27,334 nt of DNA from positions 1 through 27,334 of the IMG/VR virus record IMGVR_UViG_3300036444_000047; one strand, given 5' to 3'. The notes beneath the pieces are model-generated. The model saw only the letters and a list, made by a program, of their open reading frames with translations. It was not told where the DNA came from and did not search any database. Of this stretch, positions 2,395-23,231 are shown one piece after another. Made by a program: the position numbers and the translations under genes. The DNA comes from a virus. The first letter of the stretch is position 1, and every line of letters starts with the position of its first letter.

Positions 2395-2721
2395 TCAGCC
2401 CGTCATGGGCACTTCAGCGGCGGCGGGCCGCGGTTCGCTCTCGTCGTTCGCCGGCGTGCGGTGATCGTCGTTCGCGGGCCGCGGCCCGAAATGCTGAAGG
2501 TTGGGATTGCAGAGCGGCAGAGTGACCTCCGGGTTAGGCTGCGCGCTGGGCACGAGCGTGCGAAGGATCACGAGCTGGGCAACGAAGGCGTGCCCGCAGC
2601 CATCGTTCTCGCAGCGGAAGCGGATCTCGCGGGAGAGGAGCGTCTCCTCCTCGCTATGGCGCACCGTAGCGCGGGCGCGGCAGTGCGGGCATCGAATCGT
2701 AAACCTGGATCTGGCGGTCAT
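2395..2721 (-). CDS. ogr: Ogr/Delta-type zinc-finger activator of late transcription (108 aa)
   Basis: The family signature is clear: RCPHC at residues 10-14, a RE..F.C segment, then C37-x4-C42 followed by GHAFVAQL and a LRTL.PS tail. The four cysteines (11, 14, 37, 42) bind zinc in P2 Ogr and P4 Delta. Those proteins bind a dyad upstream of phage late promoters and recruit RNA polymerase through its alpha subunit. At 108 residues it is longer than P2 Ogr (72 aa), with an extra Pro/Asn-rich tail of low complexity. The ATG overlaps the upstream gene's stop (ATGA 2718-2721). Here it is encoded in the early operon rather than downstream of D. Likely targets are the two dyads upstream of J and V. 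Confidence 0.9.
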   Translation of the reverse strand: MTARSRFTIRCPHCRARATVRHSEEETLLSREIRFRCENDGCGHAFVAQLVILRTLVPSAQPNPEVTLPLCNPNLQHFGPRPANDDHRTPANDESEPRPAAAEVPMTG

Positions 2722-4758: not shown

Positions 4759-7011
4759 ATGATAGAAGTCGCGGACAGCGTGGGCGAGTATGAGGTCGAA
4801 GCAGAAGACCCGTCTCTCGTTCCGATCAAGTTCTCCGCAGATTCGGCGCTAATACGCGAGCTGGGCGAGCGCTTGGTGGGCCAGCCCTACATCGCGCTCG
4901 CGGAGCTGATTAAGAATTCATACGACGCCGATGCGACCCTTTGCCTAGTAAAGCTCGAGGAAGATAGGATTACTGTGTCCGACAACGGGCATGGGATGAA
5001 CTCTAGCGAGTTCAAAGAATACTGGATGAAAATCGGCACTCGGAACAAACAGCGCACAGTTCGCAGTCGGAGATTTAATCGATCTACGACAGGCTCAAAG
5101 GGAGTTGGTCGGCTCTCCGCGCAATTTCTCGCTCACCGAATGCAATTGATTACGACCCCAGAGGGAGACGATAGCGTGCGGCTTCACGCGCTTGTCGATT
5201 GGGACAGCGCCGTGGACGCGGGTCTGCTCACCAATGCCCAAGCCCTCTACAAGACCACAGCCGCTGACGACGCTCGTTTTCCCAACGACAGCCCCGTGGG
5301 AACGACGGTGATCATGGAAGGACTGAAGCAAAATTGGGGTCCCGACGAAGTTCGCAATCTCGGAAGAGAGATTTGGAGTCTCCAGTCACCCTTCGAGAAT
5401 TGGGGACAACTCTCCTCCGGGAACATAGATGATCTGACATTTCGTATCGAGTTCGAATCCGATCGACTGGGTCTTGACCGGACGTTCGGCCAGCAGATGC
5501 GCGCGATCATCGATAGCTCGCACGCGATCATTCGCGGTAACCTAGTCGACACAGAAGACGGGAAGGTCGTGGAGGTCGATCTGCAGTTCGCAGATGGCGA
5601 ACGATACGCGCAGACTTGGCCAGTGGAGGCGCTAAAGGCACATGAGGATGATTGGGCCAAATGGGTACTCCACAATGCCTCTTGGCAAATCAACATATAT
5701 GACTTCGTGGGCCGTCAACCAGGAGGAGTTCCGGTTCGTGAAGCGCGTGAATATCTGGAGAGGTTCGGGGGCGTGTCGATATACGATACCGGCTTCAAGC
5801 TCCCACATTACGGCATAAATACCGATTGGTTGCGGATCGAGTTCGATCATGCCCACCGGCGATCCGCATCAGCTCTGCTTCCGTCGCGGCTCCAAGTCAC
5901 TCGCGCCCTAAACGATCTTCCGTCGCAGGGACGGATCATGGGCGTGGTAAGCGTGAACACGGGCTCCGAATTCGATAACGCTGCGCCGACGGAGCGGAAT
6001 AGCGGCGAGTATCTCAAGATCCTTATTACTCGTGATCGGCTCGCGTCGAACGACGCGATGACTCAGCTTACGCGAGCGGTACGGTCTTCACTCGACTTCT
6101 ACGCCACTCGTCAGCGCATAAGAAGCGATCGAGAGATAGAAATAGAGCGCCCAGCCGAGCCGGCGTCGTTCAAGGTGGGACGCTTGGCGTCGTTGGCCAC
6201 TGAGGTTAGCCGCAGATATCCCGACGACGAAACGATCAGTCAATTTGCTAGGGAGGTTTTTGACCTCGACCAAACGATCGCGCGACAAGAGCGTGCGGAC
6301 AACGGTGAGCGAAGCCTACTGGGTTCATTGGCTTCGACCGGGATGGCCGCGCTCGCGCTGGAACATGAAAACCGCAAAGAGATTCGACTCGGTCGGCAGC
6401 TTGTTCAGAGACTGCGGCGCGCCGCGAGCCAGTTCCGCAACAGCGAGCTAGAAAGCATAGCCAGCGAGTTCGAAGTGTGGCTCGATCGGCTTGAGGCGAC
6501 GCGCGACATCTTTGCACCAATGTTGAGTGCCGAGGATCGCGACGTCGTCGAGGCGTTGCAGGTTTCCGGAGTAGTTCGGCAGGTCGTGAGAGCAACGAAT
6601 GCCCTGATGCCTTCGGTCGATTTCAAGTATAGTATCCCGCCTGATGCATACTTCCCACCGGCAACCTATGCTGATTGGCACGCGCTAATTCAGAATGTGC
6701 TAGTGAACGCCGCCAACGCGATGCTCGACACGCCGCGACCATTGATCGAGTTCTCCTTCGGCCGAACAGGTCGGTCGAACTGGCTGCGGATCATCAACAA
6801 CGGTGTTCCGATCGATCTTGCTGCCGCGGACCAGTTCTTCGAGCCTTTCAAGCGCAAGCAGGTCATCACCTCAGAGCGCGCCGCCTTGGGCCTCGGCGGC
6901 ATGGGACTCGGTTTAACAATCGTGCGAATGATCGCGAGCCTCCGTGAATGCAACGTCAGGTTCGTCGAAGGTGACGGCAGGACGACATTCCAGATAAGCT
7001 GGAGCACCTAG
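4759..7011 (+). CDS. Double GHKL protein: MORC/HSP90-like ATPase fused to histidine-kinase-like module (750 aa)
   Basis: Two ATPase folds of the GHKL superfamily are visible. The N-terminal one (about 25-240) has an intact MutL/HSP90/MORC-type site: N-box E49..KN53..DAD58, DNGHG at 75-79 and GSKGVG at 112-117. The C-terminal one (about 630-750) looks like a histidine kinase ATPase. Its N-box is NVLVNAANA (646-654), its F-box FFEPF and its G2 box GLGGMGLGL, but the G1 box reads NNGVPI (680-685) where DxGxG is expected. A helical segment before it has LEHEN with His536, a possible phosphoacceptor. The ATG at 4759 is preceded by only a weak ribosome binding site. The stop overlaps the next gene (TAGTG). 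It probably senses or remodels DNA or invading phage and signals to the receiver-like protein (inference). Confidence 0.8.
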   Translation: MIEVADSVGEYEVEAEDPSLVPIKFSADSALIRELGERLVGQPYIALAELIKNSYDADATLCLVKLEEDRITVSDNGHGMNSSEFKEYWMKIGTRNKQRTVRSRRFNRSTTGSKGVGRLSAQFLAHRMQLITTPEGDDSVRLHALVDWDSAVDAGLLTNAQALYKTTAADDARFPNDSPVGTTVIMEGLKQNWGPDEVRNLGREIWSLQSPFENWGQLSSGNIDDLTFRIEFESDRLGLDRTFGQQMRAIIDSSHAIIRGNLVDTEDGKVVEVDLQFADGERYAQTWPVEALKAHEDDWAKWVLHNASWQINIYDFVGRQPGGVPVREAREYLERFGGVSIYDTGFKLPHYGINTDWLRIEFDHAHRRSASALLPSRLQVTRALNDLPSQGRIMGVVSVNTGSEFDNAAPTERNSGEYLKILITRDRLASNDAMTQLTRAVRSSLDFYATRQRIRSDREIEIERPAEPASFKVGRLASLATEVSRRYPDDETISQFAREVFDLDQTIARQERADNGERSLLGSLASTGMAALALEHENRKEIRLGRQLVQRLRRAASQFRNSELESIASEFEVWLDRLEATRDIFAPMLSAEDRDVVEALQVSGVVRQVVRATNALMPSVDFKYSIPPDAYFPPATYADWHALIQNVLVNAANAMLDTPRPLIEFSFGRTGRSNWLRIINNGVPIDLAAADQFFEPFKRKQVITSERAALGLGGMGLGLTIVRMIASLRECNVRFVEGDGRTTFQISWST

Positions 7012-8243
7012 TGACTATCAAGAGTATCTATGTCTGCGACGACAAGGAGGCGCTCGCCAAAGGCTGGGCGGAAGAGATTCGACGCAAAGCGGGCAACGGC
7101 GTGACCGTCGAACGAATCGAAGACCCAGGGAATGAGTTCAAGAAGCTTCTCAGAAGAATTCCGCGCGAGCGGAGAGATATCGAGAGGGAAGTCGAAAGCG
7201 CCTTCGACAAGGCCGATATTCTCGTCGTCGATTACGATCTTCTGGAGGTCGATGCCGACCAAGCTCGCCACACGGGCGAAGGCTTCGCGAGAACGGCGCG
7301 CTTATATTCTGATTGCGGCTTGGTCATCGTGATGAACCAATTTGTGAACGAAGCCGCGTTCGATTTATCTCTAACGGGCCACCTACACAGCTTCGCCGAC
7401 CTCAACATTGACGACCGACAAGTAGGACTCAGCACGCTATGGGGGGCAAAGCGCGACGGGAGCGTATTCGCACCCTGGCACTGGCCAGACCTTGAGTCCG
7501 CTTTGGTCCAACGAAGGGCGTTGATTGGAAGGATCAAGGATCACCTCGATCACTCACTGCTGGAGGTGATCCAATTCCCTGTCGAGATGATCTCGCGTTT
7601 ATCTGACCGAGCATTCGGCTTTCTTTTTCCTTTGATCGATGGACTGCCGGGGACGTTTAGCCAAGCCGAAAATCTCAAGAAGTTGGAGGCGCTTACCGTC
7701 CGGCAGTTCCTTCTCTCGATGAACGAGCACAAGGAGTTCGAACGGGCCATTGAGGCAAATCCCACGCGCGCGGCATCCGCAGCCGCTGCACGGATCGCTA
7801 AATGGTACTCAAGAGCCGTGCTAGCGCCGCAGGACCTGCTCGTCGACGTGCCACATCTTCTCCAACGCATGCCCTTTCTGCTTCGCTCCGACTTCGGGGC
7901 TTTCGGTCAAATAAAGACTTGGAACGACGCGATCGACGCAGGGCCTGACGCTCTCATCGGGGAACTCCGCGAGTGCGAATTTGCGCCGTCCAAAGAATGG
8001 ACGGGTCGCACCTCGTATTGGTGGCCGAAGGTCAGCAACCATCCGAAGGTGATGGAACTCAGATCCGAATTTGATTTAAGCACATTCCCGGATGTCGTTT
8101 TTGCAGAAGACGCTTCGTGCTTCATCGATGAAAAGGAGGCCGTGGCATTTCGGGCAGGATTCTTCAATCAGTATGACATCAGGTACATCAAACTCTTCAA
8201 GGACGTGCACTATGGTCCGGCGCGTCGCTTAGCCGCCGTGTAG
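7011..8243 (+). CDS. Receiver-like protein with large unknown C-terminal region (410 aa)
   Basis: The first 140 residues resemble a response-regulator receiver: acidic pair D10-D11 after a beta strand (IYVCDD), and LVVDYDL at 71-77 with D74 at the phospho-acceptor position. G89-x-G91-F-A-R and a hydrophobic strand (LVIVMN, 104-109) follow. The conserved Thr/Ser after that strand and the later Lys are not obvious, so it may be a pseudo-receiver. Residues about 150-410 have no family I recognise. The GTG start at 7011 is shared with the preceding stop codon (TAGTG), giving tight coupling to the GHKL gene. Together the two proteins look like a modified two-component pair. The C-terminal region could be the output or effector domain. 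Confidence 0.65.
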   Translation: MTIKSIYVCDDKEALAKGWAEEIRRKAGNGVTVERIEDPGNEFKKLLRRIPRERRDIEREVESAFDKADILVVDYDLLEVDADQARHTGEGFARTARLYSDCGLVIVMNQFVNEAAFDLSLTGHLHSFADLNIDDRQVGLSTLWGAKRDGSVFAPWHWPDLESALVQRRALIGRIKDHLDHSLLEVIQFPVEMISRLSDRAFGFLFPLIDGLPGTFSQAENLKKLEALTVRQFLLSMNEHKEFERAIEANPTRAASAAAARIAKWYSRAVLAPQDLLVDVPHLLQRMPFLLRSDFGAFGQIKTWNDAIDAGPDALIGELRECEFAPSKEWTGRTSYWWPKVSNHPKVMELRSEFDLSTFPDVVFAEDASCFIDEKEAVAFRAGFFNQYDIRYIKLFKDVHYGPARRLAAV

Positions 8244-8247
8244 AGTC

Positions 8248-8949
8248 ATGGAAGAGGCGGGAAAGGCAATCGTTGCGATATTAGAGATTCTCACCAGACG
8301 GGGCCTGGAAGGATATCGGAGCTTGGATGTTTCGGATCGCGACGCACTTCAAGCTAGCCCGAAGGGCAAGCTCGATAAGGTCGTTTCGCAATATAGCTTG
8401 ATGCACCCTCGCGAAGTCAGCGATTTGGCGAACAGTCCGGTTCGTCAAGCATTCGACGCTAACAGATTCATACGGCTTGAGCCATCGAACAATTCGAAGG
8501 AGGGGTACGGATACCTGTGGTGCCGGTGGGATTTCGCGAACGGCGAGAAGAGCGGGTTCTACTATGGCTATTATCGGTTGGCCGAGAGCCATACCGATGA
8601 CGAGCAGGCGAAGGTGAAGGGCGGAGTGCCCCAGTTCATCGGGTATCGATTCGAGTCTCCTACATTGCGGGGCGACGTCGAGCATAAGTTCTTCCATGCC
8701 CAGCCCGCCAACTCCATGAGCCCTGACGCTGGTCTCAAGATGGCGTATGCTCTACCGAGGCCAGACTATGCACCTACCTTCCCACTTCCGGTTCGGACTG
8801 TCTGCGGCTTGTTGCTCTGCGTCGTATTGGCCGTGCTGGGTCGCCGCCAGCTCGAAGAAATAATTGGCGAGTTGGAGCAGCACCGACGGTTAGCAAGAAA
8901 TGCGCATCTTCAAGAGGCCATCCGGCAGGTACGGGAGATTGCCACCTGA
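8248..8949 (+). CDS. Unknown protein of the accessory cassette (233 aa)
   Basis: I do not recognise a family. The protein is mixed alpha/beta, rich in aromatic residues around 86-110 (YGYLWCRWDF, FYYGYYRL). It has one hydrophobic stretch at about 184-198 (TVCGLLLCVVLAVLG) and a charged helical C-terminus that may form a coiled coil. It starts 4 bases after the receiver-like gene and is followed by a 45-bp gap before the methyltransferase, so it belongs to the signalling half of the operon. No PD-(D/E)XK, HNH, GIY-YIG or Toprim motif could be identified by eye. In this context it may be the missing effector or an adaptor. Confidence 0.6.
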   Translation: MEEAGKAIVAILEILTRRGLEGYRSLDVSDRDALQASPKGKLDKVVSQYSLMHPREVSDLANSPVRQAFDANRFIRLEPSNNSKEGYGYLWCRWDFANGEKSGFYYGYYRLAESHTDDEQAKVKGGVPQFIGYRFESPTLRGDVEHKFFHAQPANSMSPDAGLKMAYALPRPDYAPTFPLPVRTVCGLLLCVVLAVLGRRQLEEIIGELEQHRRLARNAHLQEAIRQVREIAT

Positions 8950-8994
8950 GACCATGCCGTGCATAAGCGTCGCCAGAGCGTCGTCAGAAGTTGA

Positions 8995-10053
8995 ATGAAG
9001 AGTCAATCGCCCTTTGCCGCATCGGTCGTCGACCTGTTCTGCGGAGCAGGAGGGCTCGCGCACGGCTTTAAACTAGAGGGGTTTCCGATCGCCGCGGGGG
9101 TCGACCTTGACCCGGCATGCCGATATCCCTTCGAGTACAATAATGGGTCCACGTTCCACGAGCTGGATATCGCCGAAGCGGACGGCGCGACGATTTCCAG
9201 CCTGTTTCCGGCCGAAGGACGGCGAGTGCTCGTCGGCTGCGCGCCCTGCCAGCCGTTCTCGACGTACACGCAACGCCGGATGGATCCCCAATATGGCTTG
9301 GTGTCTAAATTTGCCGACATCATCGCAGAAGCCAAGCCCGACATCGTCTCCATGGAGAACGTGCCCGCCCTGATGGATTATCACGGCGGCAGGTTGCTCG
9401 ACGGCTTCGTTAGGAAGCTGGAGGACGCGGGCTACCAGGTAAGCGCGGAACGCGTGTATCTCCCCGATTACGGCTTGCCGCAACGTCGCCGGCGCCTGGT
9501 TGTGTTGGCGTCGCGATTTGGATCCATCGCGCTCGAGAGAGCCGATGTCGGGATCAAGCCGGAGACGGTCCGCAGTCGCATAGGCGATCTGCGTCGACTC
9601 GACGCGGGCGAGCGTGATCCGAACGATCCGCTGCACTGCGCCAGCAAGGTGTCGGATCTCAATCTCCGCCGTCTTCGAGCCTCAAAGCCTGGCGGAACAT
9701 GGCGCGATTGGGATCCATCTCTCGTCGCCGATTGTCACAAGAAGACGAAGGGCAAGGGATACGGCGCCGTGTACGGACGGATGACGTGGGACGATCCATC
9801 GCCCACCATAACTACGTTGTTCTACGGCTTCGGGAATGGGCGCTTTGGTCATCCCGAGCAAGATCGTGCCTTGTCCTTGCGAGAAGGGGCATTGTTGCAA
9901 ACGTTTCCGCCGGACTATCGGTTCGTCGAACCCGGTAAAGAGGTGAATATGAGGACGACCGGTCGGCTCATTGGGAATGCCGTGCCGGTCGAGCTGGGGC
10001 GCATTATCGCTCGATCCGTGCGACGACATCTCGAGCAGCACCGCGAGCGATGA
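8995..10053 (+). CDS. C5-cytosine DNA methyltransferase (352 aa)
   Basis: All main C5-methyltransferase motifs are present in order. Motif I (DLFCGAGG, 13-20) binds AdoMet, motif IV (APCQPFS, 83-89) carries the catalytic Cys85, and motif VI (ENV) is at 121-123. Motif VIII (PQRRRR) is at about 162-167 and motif X (GNAVP) at about 327-331. A target-recognition region lies at about 185-290. The recognition sequence cannot be read from the sequence. The stop overlaps the Vsr start (ATGA 10050-10053). Pairing with Vsr is common because Vsr repairs T:G mismatches left when 5-methylcytosine deaminates at the methylated site. It is probably the self-marking enzyme of the cassette. Confidence 0.92.
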   Translation: MKSQSPFAASVVDLFCGAGGLAHGFKLEGFPIAAGVDLDPACRYPFEYNNGSTFHELDIAEADGATISSLFPAEGRRVLVGCAPCQPFSTYTQRRMDPQYGLVSKFADIIAEAKPDIVSMENVPALMDYHGGRLLDGFVRKLEDAGYQVSAERVYLPDYGLPQRRRRLVVLASRFGSIALERADVGIKPETVRSRIGDLRRLDAGERDPNDPLHCASKVSDLNLRRLRASKPGGTWRDWDPSLVADCHKKTKGKGYGAVYGRMTWDDPSPTITTLFYGFGNGRFGHPEQDRALSLREGALLQTFPPDYRFVEPGKEVNMRTTGRLIGNAVPVELGRIIARSVRRHLEQHRER

Positions 10054-10529
10054 CTTCTTTTAGAATAGAAGACATCCCACCGGAGCGCTCTCTTCTAATG
10101 GGGCGAGTTGGGGGTAAAAACACAAAACCCGAGATCCTTGTGCGCAAGGCGCTCCATAGCGCAGGCTTTCGCTTCAGGCTGCATAGGCGAGATCTTCCGG
10201 GGCGCCCCGACATCGTCCTACCTCGCTTAAAGACCGCAGTTTTCGTCCATGGCTGTTTCTGGCACCGTCATGAAGGGTGCAAGCTCAGCACCAATCCGAA
10301 GACGCGCGTGGAGTTCTGGCAGGGTAAGTTCGACGCCAACGTGGCGCGTGACCGCGGAAACGAGGAAGCGCTATCTGGACTCGGGTGGAAGGTTGTGACG
10401 ATCTGGGAATGTCAGACGCGAAACGCTGAGAATCTGACCGTCCTTTTGTCCGAGGCGCTGCGCGCCGACGAGTCCGTGAGCCTAAGCTTTCAGAATACGA
10501 GCCGCGTTGATTCAGTTGCGCCGCGTTAA
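10050..10529 (+). CDS. vsr: Vsr-type very short patch repair endonuclease (159 aa)
   Basis: The match to the Vsr family is strong along residues 15-121: MGRVGGKNTKPE, VRKALHSAGFRFRLHRRDLPGRPDIVLP with the metal-binding Asp54, then FVHGCFWHRH with Cys69 and His residues of the zinc/catalytic site. W90, GKFDANV.RD and the WEC motif (119-121) follow. Vsr nicks 5' of the mismatched T in T:G pairs arising from deaminated 5-methylcytosine. The gene is coupled to the methyltransferase by an ATGA overlap and is last in the cassette, converging on gene D. It may only repair methyltransferase sites; recruitment as a nicking effector is possible but unproven. Confidence 0.93.
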   Translation: MTSFRIEDIPPERSLLMGRVGGKNTKPEILVRKALHSAGFRFRLHRRDLPGRPDIVLPRLKTAVFVHGCFWHRHEGCKLSTNPKTRVEFWQGKFDANVARDRGNEEALSGLGWKVVTIWECQTRNAENLTVLLSEALRADESVSLSFQNTSRVDSVAPR

Positions 10530-15642: not shown

Positions 15643-16794
15643 TCAGCCTTGGCCGAGCGAGAAGTCGGCCAGGTAGGAATCGGTGATACGCTGGGTGAGG
15701 GTCAGGTGCTCGAGCGGCGGTACCGGCGTGTAATCATAGTCGATCACCAGCTTGCCCCCGGCGAGCGATGTCGTCGGGTTCTTCTCGGGATCGAACCAGG
15801 CGCGCCCGTCGATGAGCTGGCCTGCGGCCTTCATCTCGCGGATCGACCCGTTGATCGTCTCGACGATATCCTTGACCAGGCTGGGGCGCAGCGGTTTGTC
15901 GATCGCCCACATCATGCCCGCGGCGATCGTGTCCATCAGCACCTGGGCAGTGCGCGTGGCGCTTTCGAAGGCGAAGAGCGGTTCATCCGAGCAGGTGCGG
16001 CTGCCCCAGATTCGGAAGCCCCCGTTCGCGCGGATGAGCGCGCTCACCTCCGCGGCATTGAGCAGGTTCGCCTCGCAGTTCTCGTCCTGAACGTCGAACT
16101 GGATATCCTTGGTGAGGCCGACGACGCCCTGCACGGGCACGTTGGAGATCGTCTTGTGGAAGCCCTGCTCGGTATCGATCCGGGCACGCAGCCCAAGCGC
16201 ACGGGCCGTGCCGAAGCTGGTGACGTTCGCCTTTGCCGCCGTGTCGAATGCGACAAAGTCGGGGTAGATGAGCATCAGCTCGCGCGCCGTGAAATTGGCA
16301 CGATAGGCGATCGCTTCGGTGACGGTGTCGCCGACCGCCGCCGCATAGGCCATGGCGCGCAGCTTCTGGGCAATCACGATCATCGCCGTGGTCACCGCCT
16401 GGGTATCGAGCCCTGGCGCCCCGATTATGCGCGGCTTGACGCCGACCTGCGCTTCGGCCGCGAGCAGTGCCTGCATTCCGCTCTTCACGCCGTTCACGTC
16501 ATCGCCGATGACTGCGGCATCGGTCGCGGCAGCGTCGGCGCCGGGTGCGACGCGCACCACAACCACAGGGCAGCGGGCCTGGTCCGCGATCGCGCGAAGC
16601 GCGTTGCGAAGCGTGCCGGCGCCGCCGGCGACGCCGATCGCGGCCTCAATGTCCGTCACCAGGGCGGGGCGGTCGAGGGGGAAGGCGGCGGCGTCGGCCG
16701 CGGGGGCGGTTGCGACCAGGCCGATCACCGCCGTTGCGACGGTGGCGAGGCTGCGCGTGCCTTCGTTGACTTCGGTGATCGTGATTCCGTGCAT
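15643..16794 (-). CDS. FI: Tail sheath protein gpFI (383 aa)
   Basis: This is the contractile tail sheath protein. Family signs are HGITITEVNEGTR at the N-terminus, IGLVATAP.A, a KPRIIGAPGLDTQAV segment in the centre, a conserved IWGSRTCS near residue 285 and the C-terminal IDYDYTPVPPLEHL with LADF. The length is typical of P2-like sheaths (about 390 aa). GGGAG lies just upstream of the ATG. It is followed by the tube gene FII, as in P2. Confidence 0.96.
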   Translation of the reverse strand: MHGITITEVNEGTRSLATVATAVIGLVATAPAADAAAFPLDRPALVTDIEAAIGVAGGAGTLRNALRAIADQARCPVVVVRVAPGADAAATDAAVIGDDVNGVKSGMQALLAAEAQVGVKPRIIGAPGLDTQAVTTAMIVIAQKLRAMAYAAAVGDTVTEAIAYRANFTARELMLIYPDFVAFDTAAKANVTSFGTARALGLRARIDTEQGFHKTISNVPVQGVVGLTKDIQFDVQDENCEANLLNAAEVSALIRANGGFRIWGSRTCSDEPLFAFESATRTAQVLMDTIAAGMMWAIDKPLRPSLVKDIVETINGSIREMKAAGQLIDGRAWFDPEKNPTTSLAGGKLVIDYDYTPVPPLEHLTLTQRITDSYLADFSLGQG

Positions 16795-16806: not shown

Positions 16807-17178
16807 TCAGGCGTAGACGGTGAGGCCGCCGCGCGAGGCGAGCGGCACGGTGATGCGGGTGCGGACGTTGGCGCGGGCGACGTCGGTGCGGCGTCCCTCG
16901 ACGATTACGTTGAAGGCGCCGGGACCGGTCTGCTCGAGCGCGACGCGGGTGAGGGAGATGCGAGGCTCCCAACGCAGCAGCGCGAGCGCGGTGGCGGCAT
17001 AGATCCGGATCCTGCCCGCCGGGTTCGCAGGCTGATCGATTAGATCCATCAGGAGCGAGCCATAGTCGCGGCGCGCAACACGGGTGCCGATCGGCGTCGT
17101 CAGGATATCCGCGATGGATTGACGGAGGTGATCCTCCCCCTCGAGCGGCTTTCCGGTATGCGCGTCCATGCCGATCAT
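16807..17178 (-). CDS. W: Baseplate wedge protein gpW, gp25-like (123 aa)
   Basis: A gp25/gpW lysozyme-like-fold baseplate protein that helps trigger sheath assembly. It shows H.G..L.GEDHLRQSI.DIL.TP.GTRV.RR.YGS.L..LID.P, followed by IYAATA.AL..WEPRI.L..V, the full family pattern. The ATG at 17178 overlaps the V stop (ATGA); an alternative ATG three codons later is possible. It follows V as in P2, but the next gene is FI instead of J. Confidence 0.93.
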   Translation of the reverse strand: MIGMDAHTGKPLEGEDHLRQSIADILTTPIGTRVARRDYGSLLMDLIDQPANPAGRIRIYAATALALLRWEPRISLTRVALEQTGPGAFNVIVEGRRTDVARANVRTRITVPLASRGGLTVYA

Positions 17179-17747
17179 GCCGGCGGACCCGACTGGGCAC
17201 CGCCGGCCTGGACCCCGCTGTGCTTGTGATTCTTGAGGCTCTTGCCGCCGCCGACAACGTCTTCGGACGCCGTGAGGGTCTTGCTCACCTGGACCGAGCC
17301 GGAGATCGCCACGTCGCCCGTGATCGTCGTGTCGGCGGTGATCGTCAGCCCGCCGGGTGCCGCCAGCTCGGCGGTGCCGCCCGCGGCAATCTCGACCTTC
17401 AGCGCGTGCGCTTCAGGATCGTAGGAGAGCTGGGTGCCATCCTTGAAGGCGATCATCACGAGCGGATCGGACGAGGGGGCAGGGTGCGCGTCCGAGAACA
17501 GGCCTGTTACGGCGATGCCGGCCTCGGTGTCACCTTCCGCGCAGAAGAGCAGGCACTGTTCGGCAACACTCGGCGGCGACCAAATCCGGACCAGCTCTCC
17601 AGCGCGAGGAGCAAGCCAAGGAATGTCCCCGGTGACGTTGTCACCCACGCGGACACGGCACGTCGCTTCGCCCAGGTCGACGCTCTCGATCGTCCCCAGG
17701 CGAAGGATGTTGCCAATGATGCGGCGCGGATCCGGCAGATCGCTCAT
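17175..17747 (-). CDS. V: Baseplate spike protein gpV (190 aa)
   Basis: This is the P2-type tail spike that pierces the outer membrane. It has an N-terminal OB-fold-like region (GTIESVDLGEATCRVRVGD, IPWLAPRAGE.R.WSPPSVGEQ-like segment), a beta-helix stretch of short repeats (LTITADTTITGDVAISGSVQV), and a C-terminal tip with HKH (His174, His176), the HxH pair that holds iron in P2 gpV. ATG 17747 is preferred over TTG 17759. No Shine-Dalgarno sequence is visible, and the late-promoter dyad is centred 58 bp upstream. Confidence 0.93.
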   Translation of the reverse strand: MSDLPDPRRIIGNILRLGTIESVDLGEATCRVRVGDNVTGDIPWLAPRAGELVRIWSPPSVAEQCLLFCAEGDTEAGIAVTGLFSDAHPAPSSDPLVMIAFKDGTQLSYDPEAHALKVEIAAGGTAELAAPGGLTITADTTITGDVAISGSVQVSKTLTASEDVVGGGKSLKNHKHSGVQAGGAQSGPPA

Positions 17748-17793
17748 GGTGGCGGACAATGCCGCCGGCGGGGCAGCTTCGCGCGAATCGGGG

Positions 17794-17816
17794 CTTGTGG
17801 AGCGGGCCTCTACAAG
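17794..17816 (-). promoter_or_regulatory. Predicted Ogr-type late promoter site for the V-D operon
   Basis: A 23-bp perfect-armed dyad, CTTGT-N13-ACAAG, is centred at 17805, 58 bp before the V start codon. It matches the dyad upstream of J at 19 of 23 positions, including CTTGTGG and TCTAC. P2 Ogr/Delta sites are TGT-N12-ACA dyads centred near -55; here the spacer is 13. A 13-mer, GGCCGGGCTGCTA, overlaps its far edge (17816-17828) and also occurs near the J site. Confidence 0.7.
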
Positions 17817-18001
17817 GCCGGGCTGCTACTGATAGCCGCCCTCTTGCTCACGCTTTTCGGCAGCGTCTTCCTGCGCCTCGCGATTGCGCCCCGCAGATCT
17901 CCGATCCCATGCGGTCGATTTACCCGGGTGGAAAGCGCACGCAGGCGGCTTTCAGATTAGCGGCGATTGTTGGGCGATTGGCTCACCGGATACACGGGCC
18001 T

Positions 18002-18154
18002 CTATTGAACGAGACGCCAACCTTCGAACCGTTTCACCATCGGTCTTCCGCAGCCTTCGCAGTAGCTTTGAACGAAGCCATTCTGCCAGGCCGCGCGCTT
18101 TCTGTCCCGCTTGTGCTTACCAAACGCGCATCGCGCCAACTGCGTTATCTTCAT
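18002..18154 (-). CDS. Small zinc-ribbon-like protein, accessory (50 aa)
   Basis: Read from ATG 18154, the product begins MKITQLARCAFGKHKRDR and continues to YCEGCGRPM..RFEGWR. C9 with H14 and the CxxC pair (C34, C37) suggest a small zinc site, a design common among short unknown proteins of sphingomonads. It lies in the region between the tail fibre assembly gene and V, a joint where P2-like phages often carry accessory genes. Longer upstream codons in this frame lack support. Function unknown. Confidence 0.55.
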   Translation of the reverse strand: MKITQLARCAFGKHKRDRKRAAWQNGFVQSYCEGCGRPMVKRFEGWRLVQ

Positions 18155-18346
18155 AGCTGAAGCTATTGGATTCGCTTCGCTAATCTGACGTGAACGCTCT
18201 TCTCCGGAGATTTGCGATCGGTAGTTTAACGGAGCCAGGTTGTACCTTGGGCCGCGAACCCGGCATTCCAGCCAGGGTGTCGCGTTGGCAATCAGCTGGC
18301 TGGCAACAGTTAGCTTCACGAACAAGAAATAGGTCGCAACTGGCGG

Positions 18347-18538
18347 CTACTCGCCTTCGCCGGCAAGAAGCTTGCCTATATCCTCAACGCGTCCATTCAC
18401 CACGATGGAGTGGTCTTTTTCGAATACAATGAGAGAAGTGGGAGGATCAGGTTTATCCACATACACCTGTGTCACCTTGTCGGCGTTGACGCTCACAGAT
18501 GAGTTTGTCCCGGCCCTAGACAGCATCACAAATCTCAT
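18347..18538 (-). CDS. Small FlbD-like hypothetical protein (63 aa)
   Basis: Read from ATG 18538 with GGAG about 10 bases upstream, this short protein is a beta-rich sequence: MRFVMLSRAGTNSSVSVNAD, KVTQVYVDKP, TSLIVFEKDHSIVVNGRVED and an acidic tail. The layout resembles small FlbD-like proteins, in which residues after VN...V form a beta sheet. It belongs to the accessory pocket between tail fibre genes and V. Role unknown. Confidence 0.5.
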   Translation of the reverse strand: MRFVMLSRAGTNSSVSVNADKVTQVYVDKPDPPTSLIVFEKDHSIVVNGRVEDIGKLLAGEGE

Positions 18539-18930
18539 AAGCCCTCTCCATGATTCAGTTCGCGCTAGGCAATCATCAGACAAGAACGTCAACACGATGC
18601 GAATCCGTCTTCGTTGGCGTTTCATTGCCCGCGACTAATGCGCGATGCCGCCAAGCTTAATGCTGCTCAGCGCGCGGAAGTTCCGTCGTTAGAGCGGCAG
18701 CTTCGTCCGTATCGGCTGGTGCGCAAACCGAAGACAGCGGCCCCAAGCGCTGATTCATCGATATCTGCAATTTTCGACAGAGGCACCACGGAGATCGTTG
18801 CGGGCTCGAATGACCAATCGCAGCGCCGTTTAGAATCGGTCCATGCCGAAAAAGCTCAATTAGCAACTCGCTGGCAGCCGCTTCGCCGACAAAAGGAGCA
18901 TGAAGAGCAGCCGGTCCTTTGACACTCCCG
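18539..18930. other. 392-bp region without a supported gene
   Basis: Between the FlbD-like gene and the tail fibre assembly gene I found no convincing coding sequence. Frames of about 100 codons exist on both strands but read like non-coding sequence. A palindrome CCCGCTAGCGGG (18927-18938) spans the stop codon of the neighbouring gene, and AAAGGA (18920-18915 on the minus strand) pairs with TCCTTT (18897-18892). Neither makes a convincing intrinsic terminator. The region may be a decayed accessory gene. Confidence 0.4.
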
Positions 18931-19434
18931 CTAGCGGGCGTTTGCAAACGCATCCAACCAATTCTCAACTGCTGCCGGATCGAGCGCCGTGAGTTCACCC
19001 GCATTCATGGTCGCGATCGCCGCCTCGAGCGCGTTGCTGGCGGCACGGATCGCGTCGATGCGGGCGCGGCGATCGAGAGCGGCGGTCGTGTCGATCGTCG
19101 AGGCGCCAGCCTGGGCGATCTGCAGCGCCTGCATCGCGATTGCTGCATTGTCGTTGGCCTGGCGCTCGAGGCTGGCGACCGAGAGGATCCGGCGACGTGC
19201 CTCGGCGCGCACTCGTCGCAGCGCCGCCGCGCGCTGCTGCTCGAGCGGGAGAGCTGGCCGGCGCGCAAGGCGAGGCCGGCCCTTGCTGTCCGCAACGATG
19301 CACTTCCCTTCGGCCTGTCCCGCCATAAGCTCCCCGTGCCGGGCTGCGGTGATCGGCACCGCGTCGTCTGGAAGCTCGGCGTGGATTCCGGAATCGAAGA
19401 AGCTGTTATGTGCAGCGCTGTAGTGCAGCGACAT
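18931..19434 (-). CDS. Tail fibre assembly protein (167 aa)
   Basis: This protein resembles the Caudovirales tail fibre assembly (chaperone) family. It has YSAAHNSFFDSGIHAELPDDAVPIT at the N-terminus, then ELMAGQAEGK.I..D.KGRP.L, followed by a long helical region ending in ENWLDAF. It lies directly downstream of the tail fibre gene (12-bp gap), as G follows H in P2. GGAG precedes the ATG at 19434. It probably assists trimerisation or attachment of the fibre. Confidence 0.8.
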   Translation of the reverse strand: MSLHYSAAHNSFFDSGIHAELPDDAVPITAARHGELMAGQAEGKCIVADSKGRPRLARRPALPLEQQRAAALRRVRAEARRRILSVASLERQANDNAAIAMQALQIAQAGASTIDTTAALDRRARIDAIRAASNALEAAIATMNAGELTALDPAAVENWLDAFANAR

Positions 19435-19446
19435 TGGGTGGTCTCC

Positions 19447-21702
19447 TCAATAGCCGATGGCGAGGACGTACGGCCAGGAAAAGGCGTTGTCGCTCGGTGA
19501 ACCGGTGATCTGGCGCTGGACGGTGACGCCGGTGGTGGTCGGGCTTCCGATCAGCTGCCAAAAGGCGTCGCCTGCAGTCGTCGCGCTGCTCAAGCGGGTG
19601 GTTACCTGGGCGTGCAGGCAGGCGCTGGGAAATGCGATCGGGAAGTTGACGCCCTGCGTTGATTCATAGCCGCCGTTGGCTCCACCGCCCGCGCACCATT
19701 GGATGATGAGACCACCGGGGAGACGCTGATAACCACTGCCGGTGAGGTTGTTGGCGAAGTCAGCGAGCAGCGCGAAGTCGGACGCATGGCGCCCGTCGAG
19801 CAGATCCGCGTCCAGGCCCGAGCCGTGGCCGTCGTTCCCTGCATCCCAGACCTGATTGCCGGACCGCAACACCGTGCCGGAGAAGTTGGGAGAGGCGATC
19901 GGCGCTCTCGCGTCCAATGCTCCTTGAAGCCCAGCGATATCGGCAATCGCGTGCGTGTGGGCGGCTGCGGCTTTCGTTGCAGGGTTGAAGTTGCCGGCAT
20001 GCCAAACCTGCTGTCCGCCTTGGGTGATTGCGCCGGTGGCCGAGATTGCTCCCGCTACTGCGACCGGTCCACCGCTGAAGGTGAACCCCGCGCCGGTTTC
20101 GCTCATGAACGGGAGCGCACCATTGTTGGGTACGAAGCCAATGTAGCCCTGCCGCGCCCCGTTGAGATCGAGGAACTCGACATAGCCGCTGTTCCCCGTC
20201 CCGCCTGGGATCAGGTTGATGCGGCCGCCTCCAATGGGAGCGCAGTTGATGGTCCCCCTGAACGTCGAATTTCCGGCTACAGTAAGCCCGCCTCCGACGC
20301 CTATGTTGGCAATCGAGCTGATGTTCGGAGCCACGAACTCAGTGCTGGTGAGTGACGCAATGCCTCCGCCGCCGATGAACCAGTCATAGCGGTTATCAGT
20401 CTGGTTGAAGCGCAGAACATCCCCCGCATCAAAGGCAATGTCTGCGAGAGTGGCAGTCGGCTTGCTGAAGCCGGTGGAGCCGTTGATGAAGAAGCCGGCC
20501 GAGGCGGTGACGCCGTTCGGGAATGTCGCGCCTGTCCCCGTGATCGCTCCGCTCACTCCCAGCGTGCCGCTGAAGGCGGCGCCTGTGGCAGTGATGCGCG
20601 CCGCAAGGCCGCTTCCAACGTAGAAGTTGAAGTGATTGTTCGCGCGATCGTACTGAAGCAGATCGCCGGCGTCGAACGATACGGTCGGGACATTGACGGG
20701 CAGATCGAGATAAAACGTCGGATCTCGATGGACCGGGCCCGAGAACGTGGCACCGGAAAGGCTCGCCTTCGCCGCCGGATCGAAATTGCCCGAGTGCCAG
20801 ACGGCATTGGCGCCCACGAGCAGGCCGGTGGACCCGACGTAAACCGACGTGCCGCCGCTGGTGAGCTGGATGCGCCCAGGCCGCTCATTGACGAAAGCGA
20901 AGTCATTGCCGGTGCCGGTGTGCTGGATATAGCCGAAGCGCACCGTCTGCGCGGCGTTGTAGAAGGAATAGAAGGGCGCGGCGTGCGCGACGCGAAACCC
21001 TTCCGAATTGGTGCCAACGACCAGCGGGGCGCTCACGTTGCCCCCAAAAGCGGCGCCGGCGAGCAGCGCGAACTCGCCGCCCTGTTTCCCATCGAGCAGA
21101 TCCGCGTCGAGGCCAGATCCAGCGCCATCGTTGCTCGCGCGCCAGACATCGGCGCCCCAGGTGGCGAAGCGCGCGTTCAAGGCGAAGGTTAGGCTCTTCG
21201 GCGTGACAGCACGCTGGGCGTCGGTGCCGGCCGAGGTTTCGGCATCGTTCGCCAGCTCGACGACGCCGGCGGTTTCCGTCGTCGCCGGCGGATTGATGAA
21301 GTTGGCATCACCAAAAGTGATCGTCGTCGCGTCGATGTCCGCAAATTGGACGTCGATCGCGAGCAGCAGCAGCGCCTGCGCCGCCTTCTCCGCCACGATA
21401 TCGGCCTGCCCATAGGCGGCGAAGAGCGTCCCGTCCTGCAGGTAGAGCGCGATCGAGCGCACCGTGTAGACCGCAGTCGTTTCGTCGCGCACGGTGACGT
21501 GGATCGTGTCTTCAGACGCAGCCGCGCCGGAGATGGTGTTGATCCGCTTCACTTCGCCGGGCAGCGCCGCGGTGGCGGGCGAAGCGGCGATCGCGGTGGG
21601 CGACACGCCCACCGAGGCGATGCGAACCGCGTTGGTGCCGTCGTTGGACGCCGCGACCAGGGCCGCGCGGCCCGCGTTGGTGATGACCAGCTCGAGTGCC
21701 AT
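19447..21702 (-). CDS. H: Tail fibre protein gpH (751 aa)
   Basis: The N-terminal 150 residues are the conserved P2-type fibre attachment domain (LELVITNAGRAALVAA, IASVGVS, LPGEVKRI, VRSIALYL.DGTLFAAYGQ). The shaft is repetitive: two copies of GSGLDADLLDG, several VW.AGNF.PA.KA units and two tandem units built around FDAGD(L/V)L followed by N..(Y/F). The C-terminus (LPGGLIIQW, NFPIAFPSAC, WPYVLAIGY) resembles receptor-binding tips of long fibres. ATG 21702 with GGAG upstream is chosen; upstream codons in this frame overlap gene I. The tip should decide host range. Confidence 0.92.
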   Translation of the reverse strand: MALELVITNAGRAALVAASNDGTNAVRIASVGVSPTAIAASPATAALPGEVKRINTISGAAASEDTIHVTVRDETTAVYTVRSIALYLQDGTLFAAYGQADIVAEKAAQALLLLAIDVQFADIDATTITFGDANFINPPATTETAGVVELANDAETSAGTDAQRAVTPKSLTFALNARFATWGADVWRASNDGAGSGLDADLLDGKQGGEFALLAGAAFGGNVSAPLVVGTNSEGFRVAHAAPFYSFYNAAQTVRFGYIQHTGTGNDFAFVNERPGRIQLTSGGTSVYVGSTGLLVGANAVWHSGNFDPAAKASLSGATFSGPVHRDPTFYLDLPVNVPTVSFDAGDLLQYDRANNHFNFYVGSGLAARITATGAAFSGTLGVSGAITGTGATFPNGVTASAGFFINGSTGFSKPTATLADIAFDAGDVLRFNQTDNRYDWFIGGGGIASLTSTEFVAPNISSIANIGVGGGLTVAGNSTFRGTINCAPIGGGRINLIPGGTGNSGYVEFLDLNGARQGYIGFVPNNGALPFMSETGAGFTFSGGPVAVAGAISATGAITQGGQQVWHAGNFNPATKAAAAHTHAIADIAGLQGALDARAPIASPNFSGTVLRSGNQVWDAGNDGHGSGLDADLLDGRHASDFALLADFANNLTGSGYQRLPGGLIIQWCAGGGANGGYESTQGVNFPIAFPSACLHAQVTTRLSSATTAGDAFWQLIGSPTTTGVTVQRQITGSPSDNAFSWPYVLAIGY

Positions 21703-21713
21703 TTCGGTCTCCG

Positions 21714-22262
21714 TTAGGCGGCAGGCGCCTGCACCTGCAGGCGGCGGAAGGTGGTGGGGCGAGCGGCAGCGATGACGCCGACCTGGCCGGACAGGCTCAC
21801 GCCCTGGGTGAACGTAAAGTGCGACCGCACCGGCTTGGTGCGGCGGACTTCGTTGATCACGGCATCCGCGAAAGCGGCGCTGGCGGGCGTGCCGCCGGCG
21901 CCTGTGAGGGTGACGATAAGCTCGAAGGTGTAGGGCTCGCCGGGCGGCGTCATCTGCCACCATTCACGAAGTGCCACGCCGCCGCCGAAGCTCTCGACCA
22001 CGGCTCGCACCGATTCAGCGGTGCCCTTGCTCCGAGCGATCTCCATCGCTCGGCGGACGCGTGTGCGCTTCACCTGATCGGGCCAGTCGCTCGACCAGCT
22101 ATCGAGCGAAAGCGCCCAGGCGAGATAGGGGAGGAGGTCGATCGGGCAGGTGTCCGGGTTCACGAGCTGGCGCAGTGGAACCGGCAGCTCTGTCATGCGC
22201 GCCGTGGCCTGCTCGATCGCACGCTCGAGTGCGCTGGCGTTGGGAGGGAGGAGGCTGCCCAC
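21714..22262 (-). CDS. I: Baseplate protein gpI (182 aa)
   Basis: A P2 gpI-family baseplate wedge protein: LLPPNASALERAIEQATAR, then LWNPDTCP-like segment (LVNPDTCPIDLLPYLAWALSLD.WSSDWP), VKRTRV, and AMEIARSKGTAESV. A GTG start at 22262 is inferred because it shares a base with the J stop (TAGTG) and falls directly before the conserved LLPPNAS; the ATG at 22304 would lie well inside J. It sits between J and H as in P2. Confidence 0.92.
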   Translation of the reverse strand: MGSLLPPNASALERAIEQATARMTELPVPLRQLVNPDTCPIDLLPYLAWALSLDSWSSDWPDQVKRTRVRRAMEIARSKGTAESVRAVVESFGGGVALREWWQMTPPGEPYTFELIVTLTGAGGTPASAAFADAVINEVRRTKPVRSHFTFTQGVSLSGQVGVIAAARPTTFRRLQVQAPAA

Positions 22263-23164
22263 TATTCGCCGACGCCCGCATGCGTCACGTCGACCAGCGT
22301 GCACCAGCTCGCGTGTTCGCGATCGATTACGATGTCCGCCGCAGGGGAGGTTAGCACGACGTTCTGTACGCCCTCGCAGTGGAGCGCGGCAAAGAGCCCC
22401 GAGCGCGTGACGTCGAGGCCCAGGCGGTGCTGGCGATCCTTATATTCGTTGGCGCGCTTGATCGCCTCGGCGAGCACGATCGAGCCGTCGGGGCCTGAGA
22501 AGGTCGTAATGGTCGCGACGATCTGGTATGGCACGATCGTGGCCGACTGGACCGTCACGGCATCGGTGAGCGGGCGCCGGGTTTCGTCGGAGACGTGCGC
22601 GTCGACCAGCTCGAGCAGCTCGGGCGCCGCGGTGCCGTCTCCTACGCGGGAAAGCACCGTCACGAGCACTTGGCCGGGTGCTGGGCTGATCGCGCTGGCA
22701 TCGAGCACGTCGCCCGACGCCGATCGTGCATGGAAGATATAGGCGCCCTCTGGACCAGCCACCGAGTAGCCCTCAGCGGCGATCACGAAACGGCTGCGCA
22801 GATCCGCGTCGCTCTCATAGGTGGGCGGAACGCCGTTTGCCGGATCGCCTTCGTCGAGCAGCAGGCGCTGCACGTTCATCAGCGCAGCCAGGTTGTCGAG
22901 ATCCGTGCCGGTCGCGAACGCGGGCATCACCGCACGCGCCGCGTCGTTGATGCGGCCGCGCAGCAGCACCTCGCGATAGGCAGAGACCTGAAGGATCTTC
23001 ATCGCCGGATCGGATTCGAGGATCGCATCGAAGTCCGGCACCAGCACCTGAAGGCTGGCGAGCATCTCGCCCAGGATCTGCTCGAAGCTGAGCTGCTCGA
23101 TCACCGCCGGCGGAGGCAGGCGGGACAGATCGACGGCGGTGAAGGTGGCGGAAGTGTCCGGCAT
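22262..23164 (-). CDS. J: Baseplate wedge protein gpJ (300 aa)
   Basis: A gpJ/gp47-family baseplate protein that builds the wedge periphery. It shows DLSRLPPPAVIEQLSFEQIL at the N-terminus, FDAILESDPAMKILQVSAYRE, LRGRINDAARAVMPAFATG.DLDNLAA, and the E.D...R.R.......S.AGPEGAY.FHA segment typical of the family. No Shine-Dalgarno sequence precedes ATG 23164, and the late-promoter dyad is centred 56 bp upstream. It starts a J-I-H-fibre assembly operon. Confidence 0.95.
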   Translation of the reverse strand: MPDTSATFTAVDLSRLPPPAVIEQLSFEQILGEMLASLQVLVPDFDAILESDPAMKILQVSAYREVLLRGRINDAARAVMPAFATGTDLDNLAALMNVQRLLLDEGDPANGVPPTYESDADLRSRFVIAAEGYSVAGPEGAYIFHARSASGDVLDASAISPAPGQVLVTVLSRVGDGTAAPELLELVDAHVSDETRRPLTDAVTVQSATIVPYQIVATITTFSGPDGSIVLAEAIKRANEYKDRQHRLGLDVTRSGLFAALHCEGVQNVVLTSPAADIVIDREHASWCTLVDVTHAGVGE

Positions 23165-23208
23165 GGCGCCATGTCGCGGCGGCGCGGGCCGGGCTGCTAG
23201 TGCGCGGC

Positions 23209-23231
23209 CTTGTGGCGCGCGCTTCTACTAG
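23209..23231 (-). promoter_or_regulatory. Predicted Ogr-type late promoter site for the J operon
   Basis: The 23-bp dyad is centred at 23220, 56 bp before the J start, and reads CTTGT-N13-ACTAG. It differs from the V-operon site at 4 of 23 positions and keeps the CTTGTGG and TCTAC blocks. Position and shared sequence suggest the binding site of the Ogr-like zinc-finger activator. The 13-mer GGCCGGGCTGCTA recurs at 23187-23199, between the site and J. Confidence 0.7.

Follow-up and report, generated by a model that had tools for sequence, protein, structure and literature searches.

Late transcription sites of the kind considered here are best described in Enterobacteria phage P2, which, like the phage analysed below, carries an Ogr_Delta activator gene; the symmetric activator sites of its late promoters pP, pO, pV and pF have the consensus TGT-N12-ACA and are centred approximately 55-58 bp before the transcript starts, the V transcript beginning at the V ATG itself (P2 annotation, AF063097). 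For Stenotrophomonas phage Smp131, sites were predicted at PP', PO', PJ' and PV' and reported as TGT-N12-ACA, in a genome with the same operon regrouping as that of the phage studied here (PMC3931495). In the Ralstonia phages phiRSA1 and phiRSY1, which also encode an Ogr homologue, four late promoter regions contain TGTTGT-X13-ACAACA with its centre at -50 to -90 from the start codon (PMC5694545). The arrangement of the sites and the extra spacer base are thus already known, from Smp131 and phiRSY1.

The window, by which we mean the whole stretch of DNA analysed, is a single linear IMG/VR record (IMGVR_UViG_3300036444_000047; 27,334 bases). It represents part of a P2-like phage of the Sphingomonad type; among bacterial chromosomes, close relatives occur as prophages in Sphingomonas, Sphingobium, Novosphingobium and allied genera. 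The start of the record falls within the late genes, from L onward; on the minus strand these run in the order L, X, lysis genes, R, S, J-I-H-G and V-W-FI-FII-E-T-U-D, followed by the Ogr_Delta gene, and mapping with P2 and window genes places Q, P, O, N and M outside the record. Unlike in P2, the operons are regrouped as J-I-H-G and V-W-FI...D, so that a J promoter is present and an F promoter is not. The J protein of Smp131 is 53% identical to that of the window; the two phages differ in the N12 spacing reported for Smp131 and in its gammaproteobacterial host (PMC3931495).

The initial annotation had described two dyads, CTTGT-N13-ACAAG at 17794-17816 (CTTGTGGAGCGGGCCTCTACAAG) and a one-mismatch copy at 23209-23231 (CTTGTGGCGCGCGCTTCTACTAG), and had proposed them as binding sites of the late activator. 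Both were recovered by direct reading of the sequence and by a pattern scan; recomputation gave the same identity of 19 out of 23 positions, and the distances from dyad centre to the start codon downstream are indeed approximately 58 bp for V (ATG at 17747) and 56 bp for J (ATG at 23164; Table 1). The comparison with the P2 design plus one spacer base holds for the V site, which reads TGT-N13-ACA, whereas the J copy is more degraded (half-sites CTAGTAGAA and CTTGTGGCG) and has ACA on one side and AGT on the other; the consensus is found at N13, and not at the strict N12 of P2, and the arms here are 9 bp long. The N13 spacing is not new, since the X13 sites of phiRSA1 and phiRSY1 share it (PMC5694545); these phages differ from the window phage in arm letters and host. 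Within the window the exact pattern occurs once and the pattern with at most one mismatch twice, and the reversed control gave none; two or more sites at this tolerance appeared in 5 of 200 first-order Markov copies of the window (approximately 2.5%), and the pair alone, without other evidence, is therefore only moderately improbable, suggestive rather than conclusive. Chance becomes untenable because of the joint position of the dyads before V and J and their recurrence in relatives. Our own scans agree that the window holds no third copy, which follows from the absence of Q, P, O, N and M from the record.

Table 1. Features of the window discussed in the text, with positions in the record.
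Feature	Position	Strand or letters	Basis
V (baseplate spike/assembly), first gene of V-W-FI-FII-E-T-U-D	17175..17747	-	gene mapping
J (baseplate J), first gene of J-I-H-G	22262..23164	-	gene mapping
ogr, 108-aa Ogr/Delta-type zinc protein, predicted activator; modelled as NrdR-like zinc ribbon	2395..2721	-	PF04606 profile and predicted structure
23-bp dyad, predicted late-activator operator of the V operon	17794..17816	coding strand CTTGTAGAG-GCCCG-CTCCACAAG	pattern scan; kept in relatives
23-bp dyad, predicted late-activator operator of the J operon	23209..23231	coding strand CTAGTAGAA-GCGCG-CGCCACAAG	pattern scan; kept in relatives
Predicted V -10 region, CATTGTC	17755..17761	-	CATGGTC at equal distance in V and several P promoters of relatives
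Predicted start of the V transcript, no more than 3 nt from the V ATG	17747..17750	-	P2 pV spacing; V without Shine-Dalgarno
Predicted J -10 region, GACATG	23170..23175	-	GCGACATGG conserved in relatives
Predicted start of the J transcript, located at the J ATG	23162..23165	-	spacing; J without Shine-Dalgarno

For the comparison with relatives, J homologues were gathered, and 31 viral contigs were examined along all or the greater part of their sequence, the genes of P2 and of the window serving to map them; the J query from L041 added almost no new homologues. A dyad was found before J and before V in nearly every one of these contigs, and between P and O wherever the P-O gap was present (18 of 18 clear-dyad contigs retaining that region). 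The dyad centres lie in nearly all cases 55.5-58.5 bp before the J ATG, with the true ATG used, and 55-59 bp before V; in this P2-like family it is the J and V start codons themselves that stand at 55-59 bp from the dyad centre. Palindromy of at least 8 of 9 positions was seen in 58% of the J and V upstream regions, compared to 2.3% of random 60-bp stretches. The initial annotation had staked its reading on further copies before the remaining late operons, and these exist in the relatives: G002 and G003, two contigs whose J proteins are 99% and 95% identical to that of the window, carry a third copy between P and O (CTTGTAGAGACGCTCTCTACAAG and CTTGTAGAGCCGCCTAATACAAG, respectively). In these relatives there is one site per late operon and, as in P2, the divergent P and O share theirs; the P and O promoters of the window phage lie outside the window because the record starts within the late region.

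The arms are alike within one genome and different between genomes; the types found among these phages include CTTGTAGAG, CTTGTGAAA, GGGTGTGGGA, GGGTGTCGGGA, GGTGTGGCG, CATTTGTAGAGG, ATTTGGATAG, TTTTGGAGAGG, CATCGGGCGAGA, ACGTGTACCA and others, and some arms lack TGT entirely (TTTGGATAG, CATCGGGCGAGA) and stretch the P2 consensus. With dyads located by palindromy alone, the J and V arms of the same genome agreed at 7.48 of 11 positions, versus 4.35 +/- 0.27 for shuffled pairings (maximum 5.55, none as high in 5000 permutations); the J-PO and V-PO agreements were likewise reached in 0 of 5000 permutations, and all three results hold with 22 representatives. Such within-genome matching is the pattern expected if one trans-acting dimer served each phage. 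Six other relatives (L202, L215, L222, L229, L261 and L275), in which Ogr is also present, have V dyads with quite different arms, of a GTTCTGA...CAGAAC type and a GTTGATAACC type; the statistics were calculated without them.

Scans with each phage's own arms covered 25 of 32 contigs, automatic dyad detection having been unsuccessful in seven (G015, G023, G027, G032, G034, G039 and G043), several of which show weaker or differently spaced dyads by eye. The known sites and no other were found in 21 of the 25, and the reversed sequence gave none; the other four (G025, G011, G012 and G044) each have a single extra dyad. In G025 (L151/L152) the extra dyad (oriented position 16972) follows a long X-R insertion and precedes R by 56 bp, as though it restored late expression. 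The extra dyads of G011 and G012 (oriented positions 19011 and 23370) lie approximately 1.1 kb past the start of ogr, and that of G044 (oriented position 16480) lies between S and J.

The Ogr-type protein that had been noted in the window is confirmed by its profile match (108 aa, PF04606 Ogr_Delta, E 3.9e-14, 52.8 bits against a curated cut-off of 26.3). It carries the motif CX2CX22CX4C, which has been given for Ogr, that of Smp131 included (PMC3931495), at C11, C14, C37 and C42, invariant in 70 aligned sequences. Ogr_Delta was found in 62 of 85 viral records with tail genes, those without it being mostly short fragments; all but two of the matches in viral contigs scored above the Pfam cut-off, and most long contigs carry one. 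The relation between arms and Ogr was examined by a Mantel-type covariation test in 51 phages in which the V dyad was clear and a linked Ogr was present, comparing distances of arms, Ogr zinc ribbon and V protein, with an anchored register for even-spaced sites. Arm distance was correlated with Ogr zinc-ribbon distance given V, with a partial r of 0.259 that none of 2000 permutations reached, but not with V given Ogr (0.061, 397 of 2000); in 34 representatives the corresponding values were 0.212 (8 of 2000) and 0.109 (261 of 2000), and among 26 very divergent Ogr representatives neither correlation was significant. The arms thus follow the Ogr of the same phage more closely than they follow the neighboring V protein, a correlative result that supports binding of the dyads by Ogr indirectly; as a counter-point, the Ogr of the window is only about half identical to those of G001 and G003, yet the arms are nearly the same.

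Taken together, the recurrence in relatives, the Ogr_Delta protein and a dyad-to-gene spacing equal to the annotated distance from site centre to transcript start in P2 support the proposal of the initial annotation, and the dyads are, with high probability, operators to which a late activator of Ogr type, encoded by the phage itself, would bind. Phage-specific arm letters would fit any dimer that a phage encodes, and the link to Ogr is correlative; binding of another phage regulator, for example a repressor, nevertheless appears very improbable, as the sites are almost confined to late operons, the -55 spacing is that annotated for the P2 activator sites, and the arms follow Ogr better than V. 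Still less probable is that the late transcripts fold into RNA hairpins at the dyads, acting as attenuator, antiterminator or translational element: the arms are perfectly complementary around loops of 4-7 nt, sit in 5' regions and change in a compensatory way between phages, but a cis-acting hairpin has no need of the same arms at three places per genome, the P/O site precedes each of the two divergent operons, whose RNAs cannot both contain it, and opposed mismatches have no sense-strand G.U bias (17 versus 29 A.C, p 0.10). A host transcription factor is scarcely credible, although symmetric sites upstream of promoters are common among host regulators, given the unrelated arms within one genus (Sphingomonas prophages with CTTGTGAAA, GGGTGTGGGA, GGTGTGGCG, ATTTGGC and TGTTGTC) and that no result of the analysis favors it. 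An intrinsic terminator was rejected on reading the sequence, which has no T run after the arms.

The AlphaFold model of Ogr has a three-stranded, zinc-ribbon-like core (residues 11-50, block pLDDT 94-98), and the top five structures that VIA aligned with it are without exception zinc ribbons of NrdR (Z 4.3-5.3, rmsd 1.0-1.4 Å over 41-43 residues). The structures 9gex, 9fxk and 7p37 superpose over 41-43 residues at 1.0-1.1 Å with 27-29% identity (Z 4.7-5.3), a likeness that is modest in score and by itself silent on function; unlike Ogr, NrdR is a repressor with an ATP-cone. Foldseek returned no match to the model at E <= 0.001, and the support for the resemblance therefore comes from the VIA alignment and from the zinc ligands that the two proteins have in common; a sequence search found no solved structure of an Ogr zinc ribbon. 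In NrdR, the zinc ribbons bind DNA in pairs, with D15 and R17 near major-groove bases and R26-29 on the phosphates (PMC9110341). The Ogr residues that vary most with the site letters, in a residue-level covariation without phylogeny correction, are 24, 25 and 34; on our reading of the alignment they may be at or adjoining the DNA-contact positions of NrdR, which provides a lead.

The promoters show conserved elements at matching distances. J promoters have GACATGG at the -10 position; on the O side, the conserved elements are CTTGAG, which occupies the -35 position (+20 to +25), and CCCTTTT near +45. Shine-Dalgarno sequences at -4 kcal/mol or better precede only 7% of J and 15% of V genes, and O, N, FI and FII nearly always; J has one in 96% of cases where it is internal (V-W-J order) versus 16% where it comes first behind the dyad (p 7e-12), counts that are uncorrected for the relatedness of the phages. 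Reading by eye, V genes of V-W-J genomes mostly lack a Shine-Dalgarno sequence after a visible dyad and mostly have one where there is no dyad; in P2, V has the weakest among 14 late genes scored. Since the site centre lies approximately 56 bp before the start codons and the Shine-Dalgarno sequence is absent, the J and V mRNAs are probably leaderless, beginning at or a few bases from the ATG.

On the favored reading of the dyads as Ogr operators, the 108-aa protein would, once the phage genes are switched on, occupy each symmetric site, probably with two zinc ribbons paired so that each contacts one half-site. Positioned approximately 55 bp ahead of where transcription begins, the bound protein would recruit RNA polymerase to the weak promoters of J-I-H-G and V-W-FI...D, where transcripts probably start at or a few bases from the ATG; outside the fragment, one more site, lying between P and O, would serve these divergent genes in both directions. 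A wider proposal, about as probable as not, is that repeated relettering of the late operator has taken place across P2-like phages (at least a dozen arm types, with spacers equivalent to N12-N14), in step with Ogr zinc-ribbon residues at NrdR DNA-contact places, giving each phage a private late-gene code, and that the Ogr promoters of J and V produce leaderless mRNAs. Lineage-wide relettering of the operator, the NrdR-like zinc-ribbon model of Ogr and evidence for leaderless J and V transcripts were not found described in the searchable literature. One symmetric motif, findable from sequence alone, would mark the late operons and predict transcript starts at the J and V start codons, which is a testable rule; the naturally varied arms, each paired with its cognate Ogr protein, form a data set for how the Ogr zinc ribbon reads DNA, and phage-specific arms may be the reason why one host could harbor several such prophages whose late genes are little activated by one another's Ogr.

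Three further features of the window can be recorded. The 13-mer GGCCGGGCTGCTA (plus strand) occurs at 17816-17828 and 23187-23199, beside both dyads and on opposite sides relative to transcription, perhaps by chance. On the minus strand, at 953-1546, a 197-aa protein joins a GapR-like DNA-binding domain to an FtsK gamma domain, an unusual pairing for a phage. A cargo block on the plus strand (4759-10529) encodes a 750-aa protein with two GHKL ATPase domains, proteins of 410 and 233 aa that match no Pfam family, a C5-cytosine DNA methylase and a Vsr nicking endonuclease, and looks like a restriction-modification or defence cassette.
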